44,898 bases of DNA from a virus, in IMG/VR virus record IMGVR_UViG_3300012206_000009, positions 1 to 44,898 of that record; one strand, 5' to 3'. The notes under the pieces were generated by a model, which did not search any database, was not told the origin of the DNA, and saw only the letters and a program-made list of their open reading frames with translations. This document shows, piece after piece, positions 328 through 44,853 of the stretch. Position 1 is the stretch's first letter; each line of letters starts with the position of its first letter. The position numbers and the translations under genes are program-made.

Positions 328-764
328 ATTTAATCTCCTGTCATCTGTGTTTATGGACTGTGAACCGTTCTGTATATACATATATACAGAGTCACATTAC
401 AGAAGACTCTTCTCATATACGCATACATGAAAAGAGATATCGCCTAGAGACCATGTACACCAGTCACTCTTGTAGGATTCCCGGATTACTAGGGGGGATA
501 GAGTCTCTCTCTATGAATGGTCTAGAGAGTAGACTATCACGCTATGATGTTACAACACCATTAACCCTATACAGTATCCTGTCGAGAGAAACAGTAACTA
601 GGGGATATGTCCGACTCCAACTGCCTTCTCTGTTATCCAGAGTGGATAGTAAGAGCATAACCGAAATAGAAGAGTATTGCAAGGAGAATATATGAGATTT
701 TTGCATTATTGGTTAGATTCTTGTATCGGGAGAAAATCTCTACTCTGGCATAACTCTTGCAATT
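328..764. other. Probable non-coding spacer with palindrome and G-run
   Basis: I see no convincing gene here. The plus-strand frame 360-695 lacks a ribosome binding site. Landmarks are a near-perfect palindrome at 370-389 (arms CTGTATATA and TATATACAG, two-base centre), a possible operator for the minus operon starting at 327, and TACTAGGGGGG at 487-497, whose 11-mer recurs in the non-coding stretch at 42129-42139. Confidence 0.45.
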
Positions 765-802: not shown

Positions 803-984
803 TTAGTAGGTATGGATTAGTATTTATGGATTAATAGATAAATACTAATATGTATATATTAGTATTTATAGATTAGTATGTATATATTAGTTACTAAGGA
901 TTAGTAAATATGTACTAGTAAGTATATACTAGTAAATGTAGATTAGTAAAGAAATACTAGTATAGATGTATTGGTATACTATAA
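803..984. repeat. Tandem array of thirteen 14-bp iteron-like units
   Basis: Reading in steps of exactly 14 bases from 803 gives thirteen consecutive units that begin TTAGTA, CTAGTA or a one-base variant (starts 803, 817, 831 and so on to 971). The consensus is roughly YTAGTAnRTATRKA. Units 817 to 849 also form a 12-bp-arm dyad, and TATGTATATATTAGT occurs at 849 and 877, two units apart. Weaker units may continue on both sides (789, 985). The array is non-coding and lies between minus-strand early genes close to divergent promoters. Iterons of an origin of replication are the favoured reading. A partition or regulator-binding array is possible. Confidence 0.85.
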
Positions 985-1107: not shown

Positions 1108-1425
1108 TTATCCCCTTACTTTCCTACTCTCTTCATCTATTATATCTTGTAAAGACTTGTATTCTATATGTTCTAGTTGTCTATCGAGGTCTTCATGTTG
1201 TAGGGTCTCTGCTAGAGCAAATACCTTCTCTCGTAAGAGAGGATCATAGAAGCATGTATAAATAATTCGTAACCCTAGTACAAAAACTTGTCTAGTACTA
1301 GATAAAGTAGGGGTATATGGAAAGAAGTAGTCTCGTATAGACTTGAAAAGGAAATAGTCAGAAGGCTTAAATCCTGGAAGTTTAAGGAATTTGTAGAAAT
1401 CTTTATGTTTTTTCTCATCAAACAT
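1108..1425 (-). CDS. Hypothetical early protein, 105 aa
   Basis: An intact frame starts with ATG at 1425 preceded by GGAG. The protein is rich in aromatic and charged residues, with an N-terminal FYKFLKLPGF stretch and a helical, acidic C-terminus. It has no recognised motif. It is the first gene left of the divergent early promoters and the last before the 14-bp array, so an origin-binding or early regulatory role is possible but is inference from position only. Confidence 0.6.
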   Translation of the reverse strand: MFDEKKHKDFYKFLKLPGFKPSDYFLFKSIRDYFFPYTPTLSSTRQVFVLGLRIIYTCFYDPLLREKVFALAETLQHEDLDRQLEHIEYKSLQDIIDEESRKVRG

Positions 1426-1435
1426 ATTTTCTCCA

Positions 1436-1464
1436 TTGACATTTTTCTAGAGGTTCTGTATATT
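1436..1464 (+). promoter_or_regulatory. Near-consensus sigma70 promoter for the rightward early operon
   Basis: TTGACA (1436-1441) is followed after 17 bases by TATATT (1459-1464), with TG just upstream of the -10 as in extended -10 promoters. Transcription should start near 1471. The first gene starts at 1510 behind an AAAGGAAG ribosome binding site. Confidence 0.8.
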
Positions 1465-1509: not shown

Positions 1510-1929
1510 ATGCCAGTGGATGAGGTAGTGGAAAAGGAGAACCTCTTGAAAGATTTCTCATATAGTGCATATGAGAGCATTGTTCCAGAGGAAGTACGAG
1601 AGGTCTTAGCGAAGGTATTTGCCGATCAAGTCTATGGATGGAAGCGAAAAGCAAAGATTATCCTTCGGTTACAGAGTGCTCACATGCGGGTAGTAGAAGT
1701 AGAGAGTGAGCTTATTGACGCTTGTGAAGGAAGGAGTGCAGCTCGTCAACCACGTAGCAGAGAAGACATGGCAAGAGTCTCTGTGAGAAGCTTTCTTGAA
1801 GGTCTTGATGAGAGTAAACTACAACGATTGGCTGAGAAACATTGGGTATCATATAACAGTTTTATCTCTAAGAATGATAGAGTAGGGCTTATTGAAGCCT
1901 TGGTTGATGCGATGCTTGCTGGAGAGTAG
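1510..1929 (+). CDS. Early hypothetical protein with a SAP-like C-terminus
   Basis: This encodes 139 residues. The ATG at 1510 sits behind AAAGGAAG and the strong promoter at 1436, so it is probably among the first genes expressed. The protein is highly charged and helical. Residues of about 95-135 (SFLEGLDESKLQRLAEKHW followed by a helix ending in LIEALVDAML) resemble a SAP or HeH helix-extension-helix nucleic-acid-binding fold, which is a weak similarity. The N-terminal part is not recognised. Confidence 0.75.
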   Translation: MPVDEVVEKENLLKDFSYSAYESIVPEEVREVLAKVFADQVYGWKRKAKIILRLQSAHMRVVEVESELIDACEGRSAARQPRSREDMARVSVRSFLEGLDESKLQRLAEKHWVSYNSFISKNDRVGLIEALVDAMLAGE

Positions 1930-2063: not shown

Positions 2064-2405
2064 ATGAGACATAGATCAATGAAGTATATAAGAAAGGATA
2101 TGTTTGACTTATTAAGTAATATGGATAAGGTTATAGTGTATCTGTTATTACATAAAGGAAGCTATGTAAAATGCTATAAGATAGAAAGAGCATGTCATTT
2201 AACTAAAGGTACAGCAGGATCGTATATAAAATGGCTAAGGTTTAAGGGAATAGTAAAGAGGAGAAGGGTAAGCGAGGGAAGTAATGTTAAATATATATAC
2301 AGTATTAATAAGTTAGCAAAGAATAAACAGTATCTACAAAGTTTAATAATTACGACAGAGCATGGAAAGATACGAGATGGAAATACTCCCAGCATTACAA
2401 GATAA
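2064..2405 (+). CDS. Winged-helix DNA-binding protein
   Basis: This encodes 113 residues. Residues of about 20-80 read as a winged helix-turn-helix: VIVYLLLHKGSYV, then KIERACHLTKGTAGSYIKWL as the helix-turn-helix, then a basic wing (KGIVKRRRVSEG). A transcriptional or replication regulator is likely. The ribosome binding site of the first ATG is poor, so a start at M6 is possible. The 3' end overlaps the ERF gene. Confidence 0.65.
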   Translation: MRHRSMKYIRKDMFDLLSNMDKVIVYLLLHKGSYVKCYKIERACHLTKGTAGSYIKWLRFKGIVKRRRVSEGSNVKYIYSINKLAKNKQYLQSLIITTEHGKIRDGNTPSITR

Positions 2406-3129
2406 TCAAGTTGCTCTACTTATCTCTCAAGCTATAGACAAGAATGTACCTGTAGAAGCGTTAGAGAAGCTATTGCTCATGAGAGAGAAGCTAAAAGCAG
2501 AAGAAGCTAGAGAGTCTTTTTATAGTAGTATGTCAGAGTTTCAGGGAGAATGTCCTATTATTCCAAAGTCTAAGAAAGTATATGGACAGAGTGGGTTTTT
2601 ATATGCTTACGCTCCTGTTGAATATATACTTTCATATGGAGATCCATGTATTAAAGAGTTGTTAAAGAAACATGGATTTTCATATTCTATGAAGTCGTAT
2701 GTAAATTTTAAGGAGAAGTATGTAGAGGCTTTGTGTGTAGTTAGACATATACGTGGGCATGAAGAAAGTACCTCATATCCTGCCTCGTTTGAGCTAGAAG
2801 AGAAAACGAGAGCTATGACTATGAGTAAGTACATAACTGGTATACAGACATATGCTGCCAGGTATGCATTTAAGAATGCATTTGGTATTATTACAGGAGA
2901 GGTAGATCATGATAATTATGTAGGTAGAAATGTAAAAGAAACTTTAGTAACAGAAGAGGAGGTGATGAGTATTAAAGAGTTATTGGACAAGTCAGGGTTT
3001 GAGAAGGAGGGTATATATAAGGAATTCAAAGTACAGGGACTACATGAGCTAACACTTAAACAAGGGAGTAAAGTTATAGATGCTCTTAAGAGATATATAG
3101 AAGCTCAGCACAGAGACCCATTAACTTAG
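2362..3129 (+). CDS. erf: ERF-family single-strand DNA annealing protein
   Basis: This encodes 255 residues. The pattern is that of ERF recombinases: a helical N-terminus, ARESFYSSMSEFQGECP, then KVYGQSGFLYAYAPVEYI (residues of about 75-90), FSYSMKSY, and AMTMSKYITGIQTYAARYAF. ERF proteins anneal complementary single strands during phage recombination and genome circularisation. The gene overlaps the 3' end of the winged-helix gene and is followed by an acidic protein that may be its partner. Confidence 0.85.
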   Translation: MERYEMEILPALQDNQVALLISQAIDKNVPVEALEKLLLMREKLKAEEARESFYSSMSEFQGECPIIPKSKKVYGQSGFLYAYAPVEYILSYGDPCIKELLKKHGFSYSMKSYVNFKEKYVEALCVVRHIRGHEESTSYPASFELEEKTRAMTMSKYITGIQTYAARYAFKNAFGIITGEVDHDNYVGRNVKETLVTEEEVMSIKELLDKSGFEKEGIYKEFKVQGLHELTLKQGSKVIDALKRYIEAQHRDPLT

Positions 3130-3998: not shown

Positions 3999-4024
3999 CA
4001 TATATGTTATAGTAAGGATTGAAG

Positions 4025-5560
4025 ATGCCTATTCCAAAGCCTGATAAATGTATAGGGTGTCCTTTCTATGAATTATCTCCGTACATAACACCTGATTATT
4101 ATGTAGAGAATAGTGAGGTATGTATAGTAGCACAAGCTCCGGGAGAGCATGAGGAGTATGGAAAGGAAATAGTGGAGTATATATATGATAATGGTAGAAA
4201 GGTAGAGATGTGTGATAATGTAAGACCACAACCTTTAATAGGACCTACAGGGAGATGGTTGAAAGATGAATTCTGGCCTTTGACTAGGATACCATATGAT
4301 AGAGTGTCAAGAGCGAATATTATAAAGTGTAGACCACATGGAAAGAATGATCTCCCTAGTATCGGCAGTAATAAAGTTGTTAACGGTATTACACCTACTA
4401 TACTTAAAGAGGCTATTGAGCGTTGTACAAGGTTATATATGCATATCCCTGACTCTACTAAATACATTATGGCTATGGGTGGTATATCCCTCTATGCCTT
4501 AACAGAATTACAAGGGAGTAATAACGGTATAACAAGTTGGAGAGGTTGGGTATTAGGCAGGGACACAGAGACAAAACAGATACTAGGATTTGATGGGTAC
4601 TATGACCCCATTAGAAATGATCCTTTTATAAAGAACATATACCCTGTTCTTCATATAGCTTCTCTATTTCAAAGCCCTACTCTTTACAGAGCTACTATGT
4701 TAGATTTTGTGAAGTTTGGTAGATTAGTGGAAGGCACATGGCCTTTACCTATACCACATATGCATATAAACATACAACCTAAAAGTATACCTAAGTATAT
4801 AGGATTTGATACAGAGTATGATATATATGATAATAATAGATTAGAAATGTGGAGTCTAGCAGATGTGGAAGGTAATATTTACGTCATGGATGTTCGGTAC
4901 TCTAGTAGTATTAATATTCTATCTGTTATGTCTGGCACTACAGTAGTAACACAGAATGGTCTTGTAGATCTACCACACTTTACAGAGGTGTTTAATGTAG
5001 AGAGTATAAAGCTAGAGGATTGTATGTTAGCTTGGGCTACTCTATTTCCAGGAGAGCCTACTAATCTTGATTACATGACTTCATGTGTAGGAGCGTATAA
5101 TAGACATAAGCATATAAGGACTACTAGAGATATTAGGGAAAAGTATTTCTATGCAGGACTAGATGCTGATACTACGTTAAATAGTGTATGGAAGTATTTG
5201 TTAAGAGAGTTCAGTAAGGATACGTTATCCTGGCAGGAATATGTGTTACGTAGACAACCTTTGTTATATATAATAGATAAGTTTCAGGAGAATGGTATAG
5301 AAGTATGGAGAGATAGAGTAAATATTGTTGTGGAGTTGTTGAATACAGAGATAGAGAGTATTAAGGAAAGGAGTAAAGAAATAACAGGTAATCCTGACTT
5401 TAATATTGCCAGTCATCAGCAGGTAGGTAGTGCTGTGTATGAAGGGGTGTATGTAACAGAGGGACCTGTAAAGGTCAGGAGAAGTACAAAGTTGAAGTCA
5501 CTAGCAGAGGAAATTATGAGAGAAGCTCAGGAGTATCTAGATTCTATAGGAGCAGAATAG
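4025..5560 (+). CDS. UDG-like / 3'-5' exonuclease fusion, N-terminal half of a family A DNA polymerase
   Basis: This encodes 511 residues from the ATG at 4025, behind AAGGA. Residues 1-235 resemble family 4/5 uracil-DNA glycosylases: AQAPGEHE at 37-44, GPTGRWL at 73-79, NIIKCRP at 98-104, and Cys 9, 12, 102 and 134 placed like an iron-sulfur set. The usual HPS motif reads HIAS (210-213), so glycosylase activity is doubtful. Residues 258-390 are a DEDDy proofreading exonuclease: FDTEYD at 261-266, NGLVDLP at 311-317, YAGLD at 376-380. It ends in the thumb (FNIASHQQVGSAVYE, then about 40 residues). The palm and fingers are in 6053..7255. SPO1-type phage polymerases also carry a UDG-like N-terminus. 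Confidence 0.88.
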   Translation: MPIPKPDKCIGCPFYELSPYITPDYYVENSEVCIVAQAPGEHEEYGKEIVEYIYDNGRKVEMCDNVRPQPLIGPTGRWLKDEFWPLTRIPYDRVSRANIIKCRPHGKNDLPSIGSNKVVNGITPTILKEAIERCTRLYMHIPDSTKYIMAMGGISLYALTELQGSNNGITSWRGWVLGRDTETKQILGFDGYYDPIRNDPFIKNIYPVLHIASLFQSPTLYRATMLDFVKFGRLVEGTWPLPIPHMHINIQPKSIPKYIGFDTEYDIYDNNRLEMWSLADVEGNIYVMDVRYSSSINILSVMSGTTVVTQNGLVDLPHFTEVFNVESIKLEDCMLAWATLFPGEPTNLDYMTSCVGAYNRHKHIRTTRDIREKYFYAGLDADTTLNSVWKYLLREFSKDTLSWQEYVLRRQPLLYIIDKFQENGIEVWRDRVNIVVELLNTEIESIKERSKEITGNPDFNIASHQQVGSAVYEGVYVTEGPVKVRRSTKLKSLAEEIMREAQEYLDSIGAE

Positions 5561-5561
5561 A

Positions 5562-5705
5562 GTGACACTGTACTATCTTAAGCACGCAATAAACTTCTGG
5601 TCATACAGATGCTCTATATTAGAGCATGATATGGAGCTTTACGGGAGGTATGTATTAGATGCGTATGATCCACCAGGAGATGACGAAGCGGATCTATGGG
5701 ATTGA
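5562..5705 (+). CDS. Small protein between polymerase halves, 47 aa
   Basis: GTG at 5562 follows the previous stop by one base, with GGAG about ten bases upstream. An internal ATG at 5631 is an alternative start. The N-terminal half is basic and aromatic (VTLYYLKHAINFWSYRC). The C-terminus is acidic (DPPGDDEADLWD), like the acidic tails that recruit partners in SSB-type proteins. The function is unknown, and the gene may be replication-linked through position. Confidence 0.5.
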   Translation: MTLYYLKHAINFWSYRCSILEHDMELYGRYVLDAYDPPGDDEADLWD

Positions 5706-5744
5706 AGAAGCTATGAGAGTGTTAGAAACAGAGGAGAGTGAGTA

Positions 5745-6053
5745 ATGTTAGCAGATGTTGAAAGAATAGAAGTAGGAGAGATATTTATAATCTCTAATGG
5801 GGAGTGTTCAGACTATTCAGTATTCGGTATTTATAGAGCACTGAGGGAGATTAATGTAGCGGTTGTTATAGAGATATGTAAAAGGTATGAGTATATAGTA
5901 GACTTTATATATGCTCCAATTAACTGTACAGATTTTTATAAAATACTAGCTGACTTGGTAACAGAAGGTTATTGTGAGAAGCTAGAGAGTAAAGAGATAT
6001 ACCTAGGAGCTTGCAACAGACCTAATGTACATATTGTTGAGGTGGGTACGTAA
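5745..6053 (+). CDS. Hypothetical protein between polymerase halves, 102 aa
   Basis: An intact frame with GAGGAG upstream ends in TAATG, shared with the start of the polymerase gene, so the two are probably translated in coupled fashion. Alternating hydrophobic strands and helices suggest a small alpha/beta protein. Four cysteines are scattered rather than paired. No family is recognised. It does not resemble an intein or homing endonuclease. Confidence 0.65.
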   Translation: MLADVERIEVGEIFIISNGECSDYSVFGIYRALREINVAVVIEICKRYEYIVDFIYAPINCTDFYKILADLVTEGYCEKLESKEIYLGACNRPNVHIVEVGT

Positions 6054-7255
6054 TGCCTAAAACTATAAAAGGTAGAACGAGCAGAGATGAGTTATTAAAA
6101 GCTTTACAGAAGGATAATATATCAGGTATACAAAAGGAAGTAGCTAAGTTAAGGCTTGAGTACTCTGATATACATACTCTAAGGAGTACTTTTCTAGAGT
6201 GTTTAAGGTATTCTGAAAGGATAAATCCTGTTATACTCCCTACACAAGCTAGTGGGAGATGGAGTTATATAGACCCTCCTTTATCGGGATTCCCTAAGAG
6301 ATGTATAAATCCTGAGTGCTCTAAGAAAGTACATAGAAAGACAGATACATGTTGGTCTATTAGAGACTGCATAAGGCCTGATAAGAATACATTCTGGATA
6401 GAGCATGACCTGGACGCAGTAGAGCATAGGATATATTGTTTGATATTAGATTGGAAAGAGAGGTTAACGGATTTAAGAAGTGGAAAGGATATTCATACAC
6501 CTGTCACTTGTACTTTGTTTAATCTCCCTATGTGCAGTAATGTATATAATCCTCATACTTCGGAAGAAGATGAAAAATGGAGACAAGAGGTAGGGTGGAA
6601 TGGGAAGGATGATTCTAGAAGAACTATTAGTAAGAACTTTACCTATGGACAAGGACAGTATGCGTATGTTTATTTAAAAAATAAGTATAGTAAAAGAGCT
6701 GTAAAACTACCGTATAGAGAGTATAAAGGGCTTGTATACACACCCGAAGTTGTGTATCTTATACCTAATATAGAGTCGTATTTGATAAAGGACAAAGAGA
6801 CAGGGGAGCTAAGAAGACCTGACTATATAAACTTAGCTATTAAGTTTATGGAAGATAATGTAGAGATACAGAGTAGAAAGGCGGTGGAGATGGAGGTTAT
6901 TAGAAAAGATAAGATAGCTAGGACGCTATATGGGGGGAGAAGACTTTTTTATTTCAGTAACCAAAATACCGCTAAGCAGGGATTTAACCATAGAATACAA
7001 GGTACTGTAGCTAGTTATATTAATGAGTCATGTATATTATTGCAAAAGGAGTTTCCTGATTCATATCTAGTGCAGAATAAGCATGATAGTTTGTCATGGT
7101 GTTTTATATATGAAAGTAGTAGTGTACAAGGTAGAAAGGAAGAAGAGGAGCAGATATTACAAGTGTATAAAAGTATAACACAGAGAGAGCTTGTGTATAA
7201 GAGCAATAGTATCCCAATAACAGCTACTTTTAAGGTTATAAGGAGAGAGGTATGA
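6053..7255 (+). CDS. Family A DNA polymerase, polymerase domain (separate subunit)
   Basis: This encodes 400 residues. The N-terminus (KGRTSRDELLKAL, then LEYSDIHTLRSTFLECL) matches the region after the exonuclease and thumb in Pol I. SGRWSYIDPPLSGFP at 67-81 is the TGRLSS..PNLQNIP equivalent. Motif A is EHDLDAVEHRIY (117-128, Asp 119), the O helix is RRTISKNFTYGQG (189-201), and motif C is VQNKHDSLSW (about 340-349). A cysteine-rich insert (CINPEC, then C and C at 84-106) precedes motif A. With 4025..5560 it reconstitutes exonuclease plus polymerase, so the enzyme is split in two chains. Confidence 0.9.
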   Translation: MPKTIKGRTSRDELLKALQKDNISGIQKEVAKLRLEYSDIHTLRSTFLECLRYSERINPVILPTQASGRWSYIDPPLSGFPKRCINPECSKKVHRKTDTCWSIRDCIRPDKNTFWIEHDLDAVEHRIYCLILDWKERLTDLRSGKDIHTPVTCTLFNLPMCSNVYNPHTSEEDEKWRQEVGWNGKDDSRRTISKNFTYGQGQYAYVYLKNKYSKRAVKLPYREYKGLVYTPEVVYLIPNIESYLIKDKETGELRRPDYINLAIKFMEDNVEIQSRKAVEMEVIRKDKIARTLYGGRRLFYFSNQNTAKQGFNHRIQGTVASYINESCILLQKEFPDSYLVQNKHDSLSWCFIYESSSVQGRKEEEEQILQVYKSITQRELVYKSNSIPITATFKVIRREV

Positions 7256-7671: not shown

Positions 7672-8493
7672 ATGATTATTGAACAGTTCGCTAACCTAGC
7701 TAAGAGACAGACTAAGATAGACTGGATTGTGGATGGATTGTTAAGTAGTGGAGCATGGACGTATTTAGTAGGAGAAGCTGGTAGCGGAAAGTCTATGCTA
7801 TGCATACAACTCTGTGATGCTATACAAAATGGTAAGAGCTTTCTAGGCATGAAATGTAAACAGAGGAATTGTTTATATATACAGGTTGATACTGGGAGAT
7901 TAGAATGGCAAGAGCAGGTGACAAGACTCGCTCCACATGGAGTAGCATGGACTATGTATGCTCTTACTGATCAATTTCTTGACAACCCTCAAGAAGTGGA
8001 GAATATTAAAAGTATAATATGGGGTACATATCCTATTTCTGATGAGCCTAGAAGTCCTTCACAGGTGTTAAGGCATATACCCTTTGATTTTATAGTATTT
8101 GATGTATTGAATAAGATGACCAGGTATGATCTAAATGCTAAGCCGAGTATGAATCATGTGCTAGAGAGACTTGAGCATATGACAGTAAGAGGTACAGGAG
8201 AAGCTCAAGAGAGTAAGCATTTTGTACTTATACACCATCCTAGTAAGAGTAAGAAAAGAGGTGTTGATGCTGGTAGTGGATATGGTGGGTTTTCAGGGTT
8301 ATGTGGTAACATGTTAACATTAGGAAATGAGTTATTAGTGTTAGAGAAGAGTAAGGTATTAGGTAGGAAGGAGGTTTTATTAGAGAGGAATACAGATACA
8401 GGAGCATGGAGATTAGCAGGGGAGTTAACAGATACGAATAGTCCTGATAATATACGAGATATAGAGGAAGCATTAGGTATTAGAATATCATGA
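7672..8493 (+). CDS. RepA/RecA-like helicase ATPase (AAA_25 type)
   Basis: This encodes 273 residues. Walker A is GEAGSGKS (34-41), Walker B ends FDFIVFD (138-144), and LIHHPSKS (186-193) followed by a Gly-rich stretch (GSGYGGFSGL, 201-210) matches the sensor and motif H4 region of RepA-type hexameric helicases. It is likely the replicative helicase or loader working with the split polymerase. No separate primase is visible. The next gene overlaps its stop by 4 bases. Confidence 0.85.
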   Translation: MIIEQFANLAKRQTKIDWIVDGLLSSGAWTYLVGEAGSGKSMLCIQLCDAIQNGKSFLGMKCKQRNCLYIQVDTGRLEWQEQVTRLAPHGVAWTMYALTDQFLDNPQEVENIKSIIWGTYPISDEPRSPSQVLRHIPFDFIVFDVLNKMTRYDLNAKPSMNHVLERLEHMTVRGTGEAQESKHFVLIHHPSKSKKRGVDAGSGYGGFSGLCGNMLTLGNELLVLEKSKVLGRKEVLLERNTDTGAWRLAGELTDTNSPDNIRDIEEALGIRIS

Positions 8494-18210: not shown

Positions 18211-18828
18211 TTACCTTTCAAACCAATACATTGTATATGTAAAGTAAAACTGAGCTGTTGCTGGACCTAATTGACGTGTACGTAATACTATTCCATCTCC
18301 AGCACTTAATTCTAAAGGTGCAGGAAATTCCATAATCCATTCGAAAGGTGCAGTACTAGTACCAGCAGTAGGTGTCACACATTGTGCTATTTCATCAGTA
18401 AATACAACAGAAGCTACTCCAAGTGCAGTGTTACTGTCTCGTATATCTGTAATATCTGTAGCAGTACCTTTCGTAGGGCCAAGGCGTGTAGACGTCCTTG
18501 TAGTACCACCTGTAAGAGTAGCTGTTGTAGTCTTTTGTAATCCAATTATAGATGGTGTACCTGCACTAGCACCAGCTACAGCATTTACCATCATAACACG
18601 CATACGGGTTATATATGCTTTACGTATCGAAGAAGCTGAAAGCCTTGCTGACATAAGAGATGTATCAGTTGCTAATGCTGCTGCTATGAGCCCTGTACCA
18701 CTTCTACCTGCTACACTATACCATCCTCCAGCACTAGCATAGCCAGGAACAGTTTGAAATATCTGTACATTTCTAGCTTCGTCTACATCTGCCACTACGC
18801 CAGCATTACCAGCTAAAAGAATACTCAT
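18211..18828 (-). CDS. Beta-rich structural protein, 205 aa
   Basis: The ATG at 18828 overlaps the collagen-like fibre stop (ATGA), so I prefer it over an upstream TTG. The protein is Ala, Thr and Gly rich. The C-terminal half has strands (PFEWIMEFPAPLELSAGDGI; FYFTYTMYWFER) like fibre-tip or decoration proteins. Its immediate coupling to the collagen-like gene suggests it caps or accompanies that fibre. Confidence 0.6.
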   Translation of the reverse strand: MSILLAGNAGVVADVDEARNVQIFQTVPGYASAGGWYSVAGRSGTGLIAAALATDTSLMSARLSASSIRKAYITRMRVMMVNAVAGASAGTPSIIGLQKTTTATLTGGTTRTSTRLGPTKGTATDITDIRDSNTALGVASVVFTDEIAQCVTPTAGTSTAPFEWIMEFPAPLELSAGDGIVLRTRQLGPATAQFYFTYTMYWFER

Positions 18829-20336
18829 GCCCAAGACCAGCCTATAGTAAATTGTCCATAGATACTCTGTCGCTGTACTATATTACCAAGACTTGTTGTC
18901 TGATTTATCTCTCGTATAGCTGGATAAGCTGTTATATGTCCACGTATTGTAAAAGTTCCATCTGTTTTATACATAGCAGATACATTTAGGCTCTCTATAG
19001 TATGCTCATCTGCTGAATGGTCTGCTGTTGCTACAGGTAAAATATAAGCATTAACTTCACTTGAGGTTATAAATCCTGCTTGTCCTGTTACGTCTACTTC
19101 TGCAAGTGATACACCAGGAAATGCACCGAAGTCTAAAGTTGCTCTACCAGTATTACTACTACCGCTCCCTCCTGTTCCTGCTGGACCTTGAGGACCAGGA
19201 ATAATATACACCATTTCAGGGTCTTCTGCATCTGTACCAGGTGGACCTGGTATACCATTTACTCCTGGAATACCTTGTATACCTTGTATACCTTGAGGTC
19301 CAGGTATATGTAAAGGTTCATTAGCCTCGTCACTATCCATTCCAGGAGGGCCAGATAGACCTTGTACTCCTTGAACTCCTGGAATACCTTGTATACCTGT
19401 AAGACCTGGAATACCAGGAGTAAAGCTTTCTACTCCATCTTCTCCGTCAAGTCCAGGTGGACCTTGTACCCCTGCTACTCCTTGTAGTCCAGTATTTCCT
19501 ATCGGTCCACTAGGACCAGGTACACCAGGTATAAAGTAGGGTTCCTCAGGTTCGATACCGTCTAGTCCTGGAGGACCCTGTAATCCCATAGGACCTGGAG
19601 AACCTCCTCCTCCACCTGTTACCTCTACCCATTCAGGATTATTCGGTACACTCCCAGTCCCTACTTGTGAAAGATACTTACGTGTAGTTGTTATATTAGG
19701 ATCTAGAGGAGCTATTAAGTTATCACTAGGAGAGTATAGTATATTTCCTCTTCTAATCGCTTTTGTTACGAAGAATAGAATGTCATTATTATTTATATCC
19801 TTACCAAAGTTTACACCTGTATCGTCTATAGAGATAACGACTATTGCTAAGTCGTTAGTTATACGTAGTAAAGGAGCTGTGACTTCTCCTGCATTCCAGG
19901 TTCCTGTTTGTATACTGCCTAGGGTAGTGATAGTATTCTGTCCAGGATATACAGGACTTATATCTATAATACCTACCTGTCCACCTTGACCTATTGTAGT
20001 AGAGCCTAGAACATCTATTCTATTATTAGTACCTGCTATATACAACCCCGTAGATGCTGTAAGGTTAAGATCTAGTGTTAGAACCTTAGGGACAACTCCT
20101 CCTGCTATTGTAAAACCTATATCCTGAGCTGTTAGTGCCAAGTTTGATATAACAGTACTAACAGCATTTACAGACTCTACGCTATTTTGAAATTGATTAT
20201 TTAGCGCATTTAAATATGCAAATATAGCTCTTTCATTTCTTGAGAGTATGTTTATTAAGTCTTGTATTTTTATATCTTTTATATATAAGAGAGAATCATA
20301 TGAGTCTAGTCTTGGTGCTGGTAGTAGAGAAGGCAT
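18825..20336 (-). CDS. Collagen-like tail fibre protein
   Basis: This encodes 503 residues. The N-terminal region (1-240) is helical then beta-rich and presumably attaches to the tail. Residues of about 240-400 are Gly-X-Y collagen-like repeats. The repeats are interrupted four times by an acidic element of the form GPPGxD, five to nine acidic residues, then an aromatic or His and xPG. Residues 400-503 form a beta-rich tip ending FTIGWSWA. Phage collagen repeats form trimeric rods. The fibre probably contacts the host. Confidence 0.82.
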   Translation of the reverse strand: MPSLLPAPRLDSYDSLLYIKDIKIQDLINILSRNERAIFAYLNALNNQFQNSVESVNAVSTVISNLALTAQDIGFTIAGGVVPKVLTLDLNLTASTGLYIAGTNNRIDVLGSTTIGQGGQVGIIDISPVYPGQNTITTLGSIQTGTWNAGEVTAPLLRITNDLAIVVISIDDTGVNFGKDINNNDILFFVTKAIRRGNILYSPSDNLIAPLDPNITTTRKYLSQVGTGSVPNNPEWVEVTGGGGGSPGPMGLQGPPGLDGIEPEEPYFIPGVPGPSGPIGNTGLQGVAGVQGPPGLDGEDGVESFTPGIPGLTGIQGIPGVQGVQGLSGPPGMDSDEANEPLHIPGPQGIQGIQGIPGVNGIPGPPGTDAEDPEMVYIIPGPQGPAGTGGSGSSNTGRATLDFGAFPGVSLAEVDVTGQAGFITSSEVNAYILPVATADHSADEHTIESLNVSAMYKTDGTFTIRGHITAYPAIREINQTTSLGNIVQRQSIYGQFTIGWSWA

Positions 20337-42284: not shown

Positions 42285-42361
42285 AGAGTAGTCTGTATGG
42301 ACTACTCTAGCTCTACTAATCTGTAGAGAATAGTAACTCTAGATTAGTCTGTATGGACTAC
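42285..42361. repeat. Duplicated hairpin sequence
   Basis: TAGTCTGTATGGACTAC occurs at 42289-42305 and 42345-42361. Each copy folds as TAGTC and GACTA around TGTATG. The first copy extends to a 9-bp stem (42285-42308). The repetition suggests a protein-binding or termination role. Confidence 0.65.
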
Positions 42362-42446
42362 CTCTAGAGTAGAGATACCTCTGATAGAGAGGTACTGCAA
42401 CAATCAATCCTGTCTATTCTCCTCTCTGATATATAGATATATAGAG

Positions 42447-44352: not shown

Positions 44353-44853
44353 CTATGAAATCGACTGTAGAACACCTGTTATCTGTTTTGTGGCTATCAC
44401 AACGGGTAATTCATCCTTTGTGTAGTCTCCTTGAACATCTCCTATGATGTTCACAGCAAAGGTACGTAACATCTTTTCATCAGGAAATGCTTTCCGGTAT
44501 GACTCAGCAGTAGAGTTGATAGACCTTTGTTCAGCAAGAGCTTCAGCCTCTCGCACAGACACTCTACCTACTTTCTCTCTTGGCTGGAGTATTTCACGAA
44601 TAGCCTCTATATGCTCTAACAGACCATTCTTGAAATACGCTACTTTCTCTATCTCCTTCTTCAGCGCTGAGCCTCCACTACGAGACTTAGGATTCAAGTC
44701 ATAGTCATGGATCTTCGTACGTATCTCTGCTTTCTGTGCATCGGTAAAGAAGCTGAGAGACTCAAACATTCCCTTGTAGTCTACTGCTGCAATAGGAAAC
44801 ATCTCGATAGACATAGAAACAGTAGCATCAAAGCCTTCTTTACTATTCAGCAT
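44353..44853 (-). CDS. Hypothetical helical protein, 166 aa
   Basis: The protein is a mixture of charged helices with no Cys pairs (SFFTDAQKAEIRTKIHDYDL; KEIEKVAYFKNGLLEHIEAI). Its start overlaps the stop of the gene that wraps round the window ends, so it belongs to the same leftward operon. No family is recognised. Confidence 0.7.
   Translation of the reverse strand: MLNSKEGFDATVSMSIEMFPIAAVDYKGMFESLSFFTDAQKAEIRTKIHDYDLNPKSRSGGSALKKEIEKVAYFKNGLLEHIEAIREILQPREKVGRVSVREAEALAEQRSINSTAESYRKAFPDEKMLRTFAVNIIGDVQGDYTKDELPVVIATKQITGVLQSIS

Follow-up and report, generated by a model that had tools for sequence, protein, structure and literature searches.

The early control region and its surroundings

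The stretch of DNA analysed here (the window) is a virus record of 44,898 bp and probably represents a whole, circularly permuted genome, since a homologue of its last gene (44353-44853) adjoins the control region described below in two relatives, G002 and G006. No close relative was found among 50,697 phage records, and the terminase of the window was assigned from an annotated one with which it shares 26% identity. Terminase searches yielded seven related loci and three more, no terminase relative turned up in the genome contigs searched for a host, and protein searches with the DNA polymerase, the ERF protein or the 1510-1929 product alone returned no further relatives. The syntenic region was read in G002, G005, G006 (identical to G005 here), G008, G009 and G010; five relatives were informative, and the two identical ones count effectively as one. 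The early region and the replication genes of the window are laid out as follows:

399-650, minus strand: leader RNA of the leftward early operon, its structure conserved in G002 and G005/G006
654-682, minus strand: leftward early promoter, sigma70-like, TTGCAA-N17-TATGCT (three-genome alignment; function predicted from the consensus match)
746-763, plus strand: sigma54-like -24/-12 site TGGCAT-AACTC-TTGCAAT, GG-N10-GC (consensus scan and conservation)
765-794, no strand: perfect dyad TAAGTAGTATTTAT-AC-ATAAATACTACTTA at the predicted transcript start (repeat finder)
803-984, no strand: tandem array of 13 x 14 bp, consensus about TAGTAWNTATRKAY (direct reading, TRF)
831-1030, no strand: least stable 200 bp of the window, candidate DNA-unwinding stretch (nearest-neighbour energy scan, z=4.8)
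1108-1425, minus strand: conserved early protein of 105 aa, convergent with the array (alignment across relatives)
1436-1464, plus strand: rightward early promoter, sigma70-like, TTGACA-N17-TATATT, 11/12 consensus positions
1510-1929, plus strand: first gene of the rightward operon, 139 aa, conserved in G002, G005/G006, G008 and G009
2064-2405, plus strand: probable winged-helix DNA-binding protein, candidate array binder (weak MarR/ArsR/Lrs14-type profile matches, E 0.001-0.07)
2362-3129, plus strand: ERF-type ssDNA annealing protein (PF04404, E=3e-16; phrog_155)
4019-7255, plus strand: family A DNA polymerase (PolA) split over two ORFs, 4019-5560 and 6053-7255
7672-8493, plus strand: RepA-type helicase/AAA_25 protein (PF13481, E=5e-19)

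The array thus sits between the leftward (682-654) and rightward (1436-1464) promoters, upstream of the replication operon, and the first-pass annotation was right to place it beside divergent early promoters. The leftward promoter has a TTGACA-N17 counterpart in G005 and G002. Two blocks of the leader RNA are well conserved in sequence, its inner stem varies and its last hairpin covaries. Among three sequences, 15 base pairs of this RNA are doubly substituted, and it matches no Rfam family at the gathering threshold. The two early proteins that the first-pass annotation had put forward as partners of the array, encoded at 1108-1425 (a helix-rich, low-confidence model, pLDDT 57) and 1510-1929 (moderate confidence, pLDDT 75), correspond to no known family or fold, their models being unmatched in the PDB. 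A ribbon-helix-helix assignment of the former, suggested by an RQ-x-x-x-L-G-x-R pattern seen by eye, was rejected, as it found no Pfam, NCBIfam or PDB support and no Foldseek match at this pLDDT. A long inverted repeat between 1510-1929 and 2064-2405 (1955-2048) is probably a terminator or attenuator.

Further along the genome lie a major head protein, tail proteins and endolysin-type matches, the latter suggesting a lytic phage; no integrase was matched among the window ORFs scanned, and neither a phage RNA polymerase nor a replication initiator was found in the window. The polymerase matches also come in two-part order in G002, G006, G008 and G009, and towards its N-terminus the first part (4019-5560) weakly matches type-4 uracil-DNA glycosylases. 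Tandem repeats of 9/18 bp occur in a tail fibre gene with collagen-like matches (18825-20336, minus strand).

Periodicity and substitution pattern of the array

The array consists of 13 units of 14 bp with zero insertions or deletions, a strict phase that had been claimed from the letters and is borne out by direct reading and TRF, a repeat finder recovering the array as well. Units 1-7 start with TTAGTA, TTAGTA, TTAATA, CTAATA, TTAGTA, TTAGTA and TTAGTT, and units 8-13 with TTAGTA, CTAGTA, CTAGTA, TTAGTA, CTAGTA and TTGGTA, all 13 being at most one base away from YTAGTA. Identity at lag 14 amounts to 0.702, against 0.345 +/- 0.039 in 2000 dinucleotide shuffles; the autocorrelation signal proposed as a check therefore exceeds the shuffle maximum of 0.470, and the highest identity that the shuffles reached at any lag from 7 to 39 was 0.5375. 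Within the window, the array is also the strongest lag-14 stretch (0.745 over 120 bp, the next best being 0.491). No ORF of at least 20 aa lies inside its core, which agrees with its earlier description as non-coding.

Substitutions relative to the consensus are distributed non-uniformly over the 14 columns of the unit (0, 1, 2, 0, 1, 7, 7, 3, 2, 4, 6, 6, 0 and 5; p=0.007), falling mainly in columns 6, 7, 10, 11, 12 and 14 and sparing the TAGTA core and A13. Units next to each other have a mean identity of 0.70 and those up to eight units apart one of 0.61-0.68 (0.67 at eight), falling to 0.54-0.57 at nine and ten units apart. Such a weak decay of similarity with distance, together with core-sparing substitutions, hardly points to recent duplication within the array: period and core persist and the spacers vary, as the first-pass annotation had maintained. 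The 14-bp unit was also considered as a palindrome, a candidate dropped because its best dyad phase does not rise above column-permuted controls (p=0.23).

Two dyads previously noted at the array (765-794, with a 14-bp arm, and 816-849, with a 12-bp arm) were both retrieved by the repeat finder. The first pairs 765-778 with 781-794 at 14 of 14 positions across a 2-nt gap, and has the TAGTATTTAT core in common with the array; the second pairs 816-832 with 833-849 at 88%, the 12-bp arm lying inside it.

A blastn comparison of the array with phage and plasmid databases gave no match of note. A scan of IMG/VR for four TAGTA at 14-bp spacing returned 67 contigs; many of these are cases of 7-bp microsatellites. 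In one viral contig (L054, 1849-1945), an intergenic spacer contains very similar 14-bp units (TAGTATGTATAGAC, TAGTAAGTATAGAT); no terminase or polymerase relative was found in this contig or in L090, L032 and L056. In the window itself, the 14-bp motif recurs in a weaker cluster at 42289-42372, where TAGTCTGTATGGACTAC occurs twice at a distance of 56 bp, keeping the 14-bp phase. This cluster, within a strong hairpin that separates convergent genes, is the second-best lag-14 stretch of the window.

Turnover of the array between relatives

The closest relatives keep the polymerase (67-71% identical), the helicase (63-75%) and the ERF protein (44-52%). The syntenic stretch of G005/G006 is A+T-rich, with a period not beyond chance (p=0.11), and that of G002 has no period (p=0.63) and carries a small HTH-type ORF instead. 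Absence of the array from relatives that keep the replication genes had been set beforehand as refuting, and it is what both of these lineages display: since G005/G006 and G002 retain helicase, split PolA and ERF without the array, the 14-bp repeat cannot be a conserved origin determinant. The ORF that replaces the array in G002 (L017 3557-3943, plus strand) encodes a protein of 128 aa whose HTH weakly resembles sigma70 region 4. In G008, an unrelated 8/16-bp array (p<0.001) stands at the syntenic place (L106, about 2355-2610), with TTACGTAA alternating with ACACTCA-like modules; TTACGTAA occurs eight times in the 40 kb scanned, always within this array. G009 has a short 8-bp periodic stretch (p=0.004), and G010 has no array at the syntenic region.

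A lineage-specific array, absent from G005/G006 and G002, could have arisen neutrally by slippage and drift in an A+T-rich spacer, its role being limited to base composition, and unrelated viral contigs often contain short microsatellites based on TAGTA. We nevertheless hold this explanation to be unlikely in view of the uneven column substitutions, the slow decay of similarity and the lack of indels over 182 bp, as well as of the presence of an array at the same place in G008.

The main rival to the transcription-primed origin presented below is an iteron or operator array, whose 14-bp unit would be bound cooperatively by a phage protein, either to initiate replication or to regulate the early promoters on both sides, with unit and protein changing together rapidly between lineages. 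The conserved core, variable spacers and unbroken phase would suit such a role, as would the different array at the syntenic place in G008, and the 13 units are direct repeats in a non-coding early region with fast unit turnover, as in the iteron origins of lambda (O repeats) and of PLE satellites, in which iteron sets are replaced between relatives under selection (PMC8263062). However, those origins contain 3-4 longer repeats instead of thirteen 14-bp units, and here the repeats are lost in close relatives with the same replication genes. As for an initiator gene nearby, the winged-helix protein at 2064-2405, with its weak profile matches, is a candidate, and G005/G006 encode a homologue of it (found in G006 by tblastn) yet have no array. 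The conserved neighbours 1108-1425 and 1510-1929 matched no protein family and the symmetry of the unit is not significant, so that we regard an iteron or operator function as possible, if doubtful.

The first-pass annotation had also envisaged a segregation site. As a centromere-like partition site, the array would be bound by a repeat-binding protein that tethers the phage DNA to a segregation motor. Long contiguous arrays of short units near promoters do recall parS of pSM19035, with its 7-10 heptads (PMC9499535), 14 bp being two heptads. But that parS is bound by a ribbon-helix-helix ParB, differs in unit sequence and period, and has no ParA/ParB counterpart found in the window. ParABS, ParMRC and TubZRC systems moreover include a motor protein in the same genome, and Pfam and PHROGs scans of most of the longer window ORFs matched no ParA, ParM or TubZ family, nor an integrase, in what the endolysin-type genes suggest is a lytic phage. 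The segregation claim was thus not upheld, and a partition role appears highly improbable.

A promoter-like site, the weakest duplex and a possible origin

Ahead of the array, the 746-763 site, which has the GG-N10-GC spacing in a TGGCAC/TTGC context, is conserved in four genomes, one of which has it inverted, and its predicted start (~771) reads into the array. In a sigma54 consensus scan, the window, G002 and G006 each gave a single high-scoring TGGYAY-N5-TTGCAAT site, which lies at the left edge of the control region and faces the candidate unwinding stretch, the same holding for G005. The best match in G008 lies at the same edge, inverted and pointing away from the array of that genome, and the scan found none in G009. 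Consensus and conservation suggest that 746-763 may be a sigma54 promoter. Promoters of this class require an activator, and the phage ORFs scanned contained no match to the sigma54 activator family.

The genome-wide minimum of duplex stability coincides with the control-region locus in the window (z=4.8), G006 (4.7) and G002 (3.2). The 200 bp downstream of the sigma54-like site rank among the least stable 0.11% (window), 0.28% (G005) and 0.06% (G002) of 200-bp windows, when the 200 bp upstream are not extreme in any of the three. In G008, the stability minimum lies elsewhere and the array is not the least stable DNA; the downstream ranks that correspond to those above are only 2.3% for 100 bp and 54% for 200 bp. 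GC skew, another proposed check, follows gene orientation throughout the window and provides no independent origin signal.

A promoter next to A+T-rich DNA is an arrangement known from origins of phages T7 and T4. The primary origin of phage T7 comprises T7 promoters and an A+T-rich stretch. With this origin and its A/T-rich cluster (PMC12839067), the window has in common a promoter-like site adjoining A+T-rich DNA and a replication module with a family A polymerase; unlike it, the window has a strict repeat array and no phage RNA polymerase that we could find. T4 oriF and oriG resemble each other little in sequence, yet in each a promoter is combined with an A+T-rich unwinding element; foreign elements can take the place of the one in oriF (PMC3016281). 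Likewise, as judged by sequence, one promoter-like site lies directly upstream of the least stable DNA in the window, G002 and G005/G006, and the downstream sequence varies between relatives. The differences are that the T4 promoters are MotA-dependent whereas the site here is sigma54-like, and that the candidate unwinding stretch of the window is a regular 14-bp array.

On this basis, we tentatively propose that the locus is a replication origin primed by transcription, or an origin-proximal control region, in which the array forms the A+T-rich unwinding stretch peculiar to this lineage; we would give this reading somewhat less than an even chance. The putative sigma54 promoter would start a transcript at ~771, running rightward through the dyad and the array. 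An R-loop would be favoured there by the easily melted DNA and by the make-up of the non-template strand, on which G is five times as frequent as C (31 against 6 in the array). The transcript would then serve the family A polymerase as primer and separate the strands for the RepA-type helicase. A conserved core in so strict a 14-bp unit suggests binding by a phage protein, and one such as the winged-helix product of 2064-2405 may also coat or open the array.

The same transcript could alternatively function as a non-coding RNA folded from dyad and repeats, with an antisense or protein-binding role. The 746-763 site faces the array, its transcript would be non-coding, the plus strand of the array region folds better than shuffles (z=-3.2), and the site of G002 faces the HTH gene on the opposite strand. 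Repeats able to pair with one another, though, are bound to fold well, the relatives have unrelated putative RNA bodies and the site is reversed in G008, and an RNA function accordingly seems improbable.

The transcription-primed origin has evidence on both sides too. The stretch lies between the early promoters and adjoins the polymerase, helicase and ERF genes; the G008 site, facing away from its array, misfits the simplest model, G009 has no site, and the stretch in G002 is largely a gene. The earlier proposal that the array is a probable origin hence stands in part: its place in the early control region and the least stable DNA of the window speak for it, and the loss of the array in G005/G006 and G002 speaks against it. 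We favour a promoter followed by a variable unwinding element, which would fit the kept and the lost features better than an origin defined by the repeat, and the replaceable element of T4 oriF would explain why the array is free to change between relatives. Bolder and quite unlikely is a phage origin fired by host sigma54 RNA polymerase, with an unwinding stretch made of lineage-specific arrays that are replaced between relatives.

If the origin reading is right, it provides a precise origin candidate for a phage group in which we found no cultured members, and it separates the conserved parts of the origin (the promoter signal and the weak duplex) from a repeat that turns over. If the origin were indeed fired by sigma54, the start of replication would depend on an enhancer-binding activator of the host, hence on its nutrient or stress state; whether sigma54 drove an origin or an early promoter of the phage, phage replication would be linked to the nutrient state of the host.
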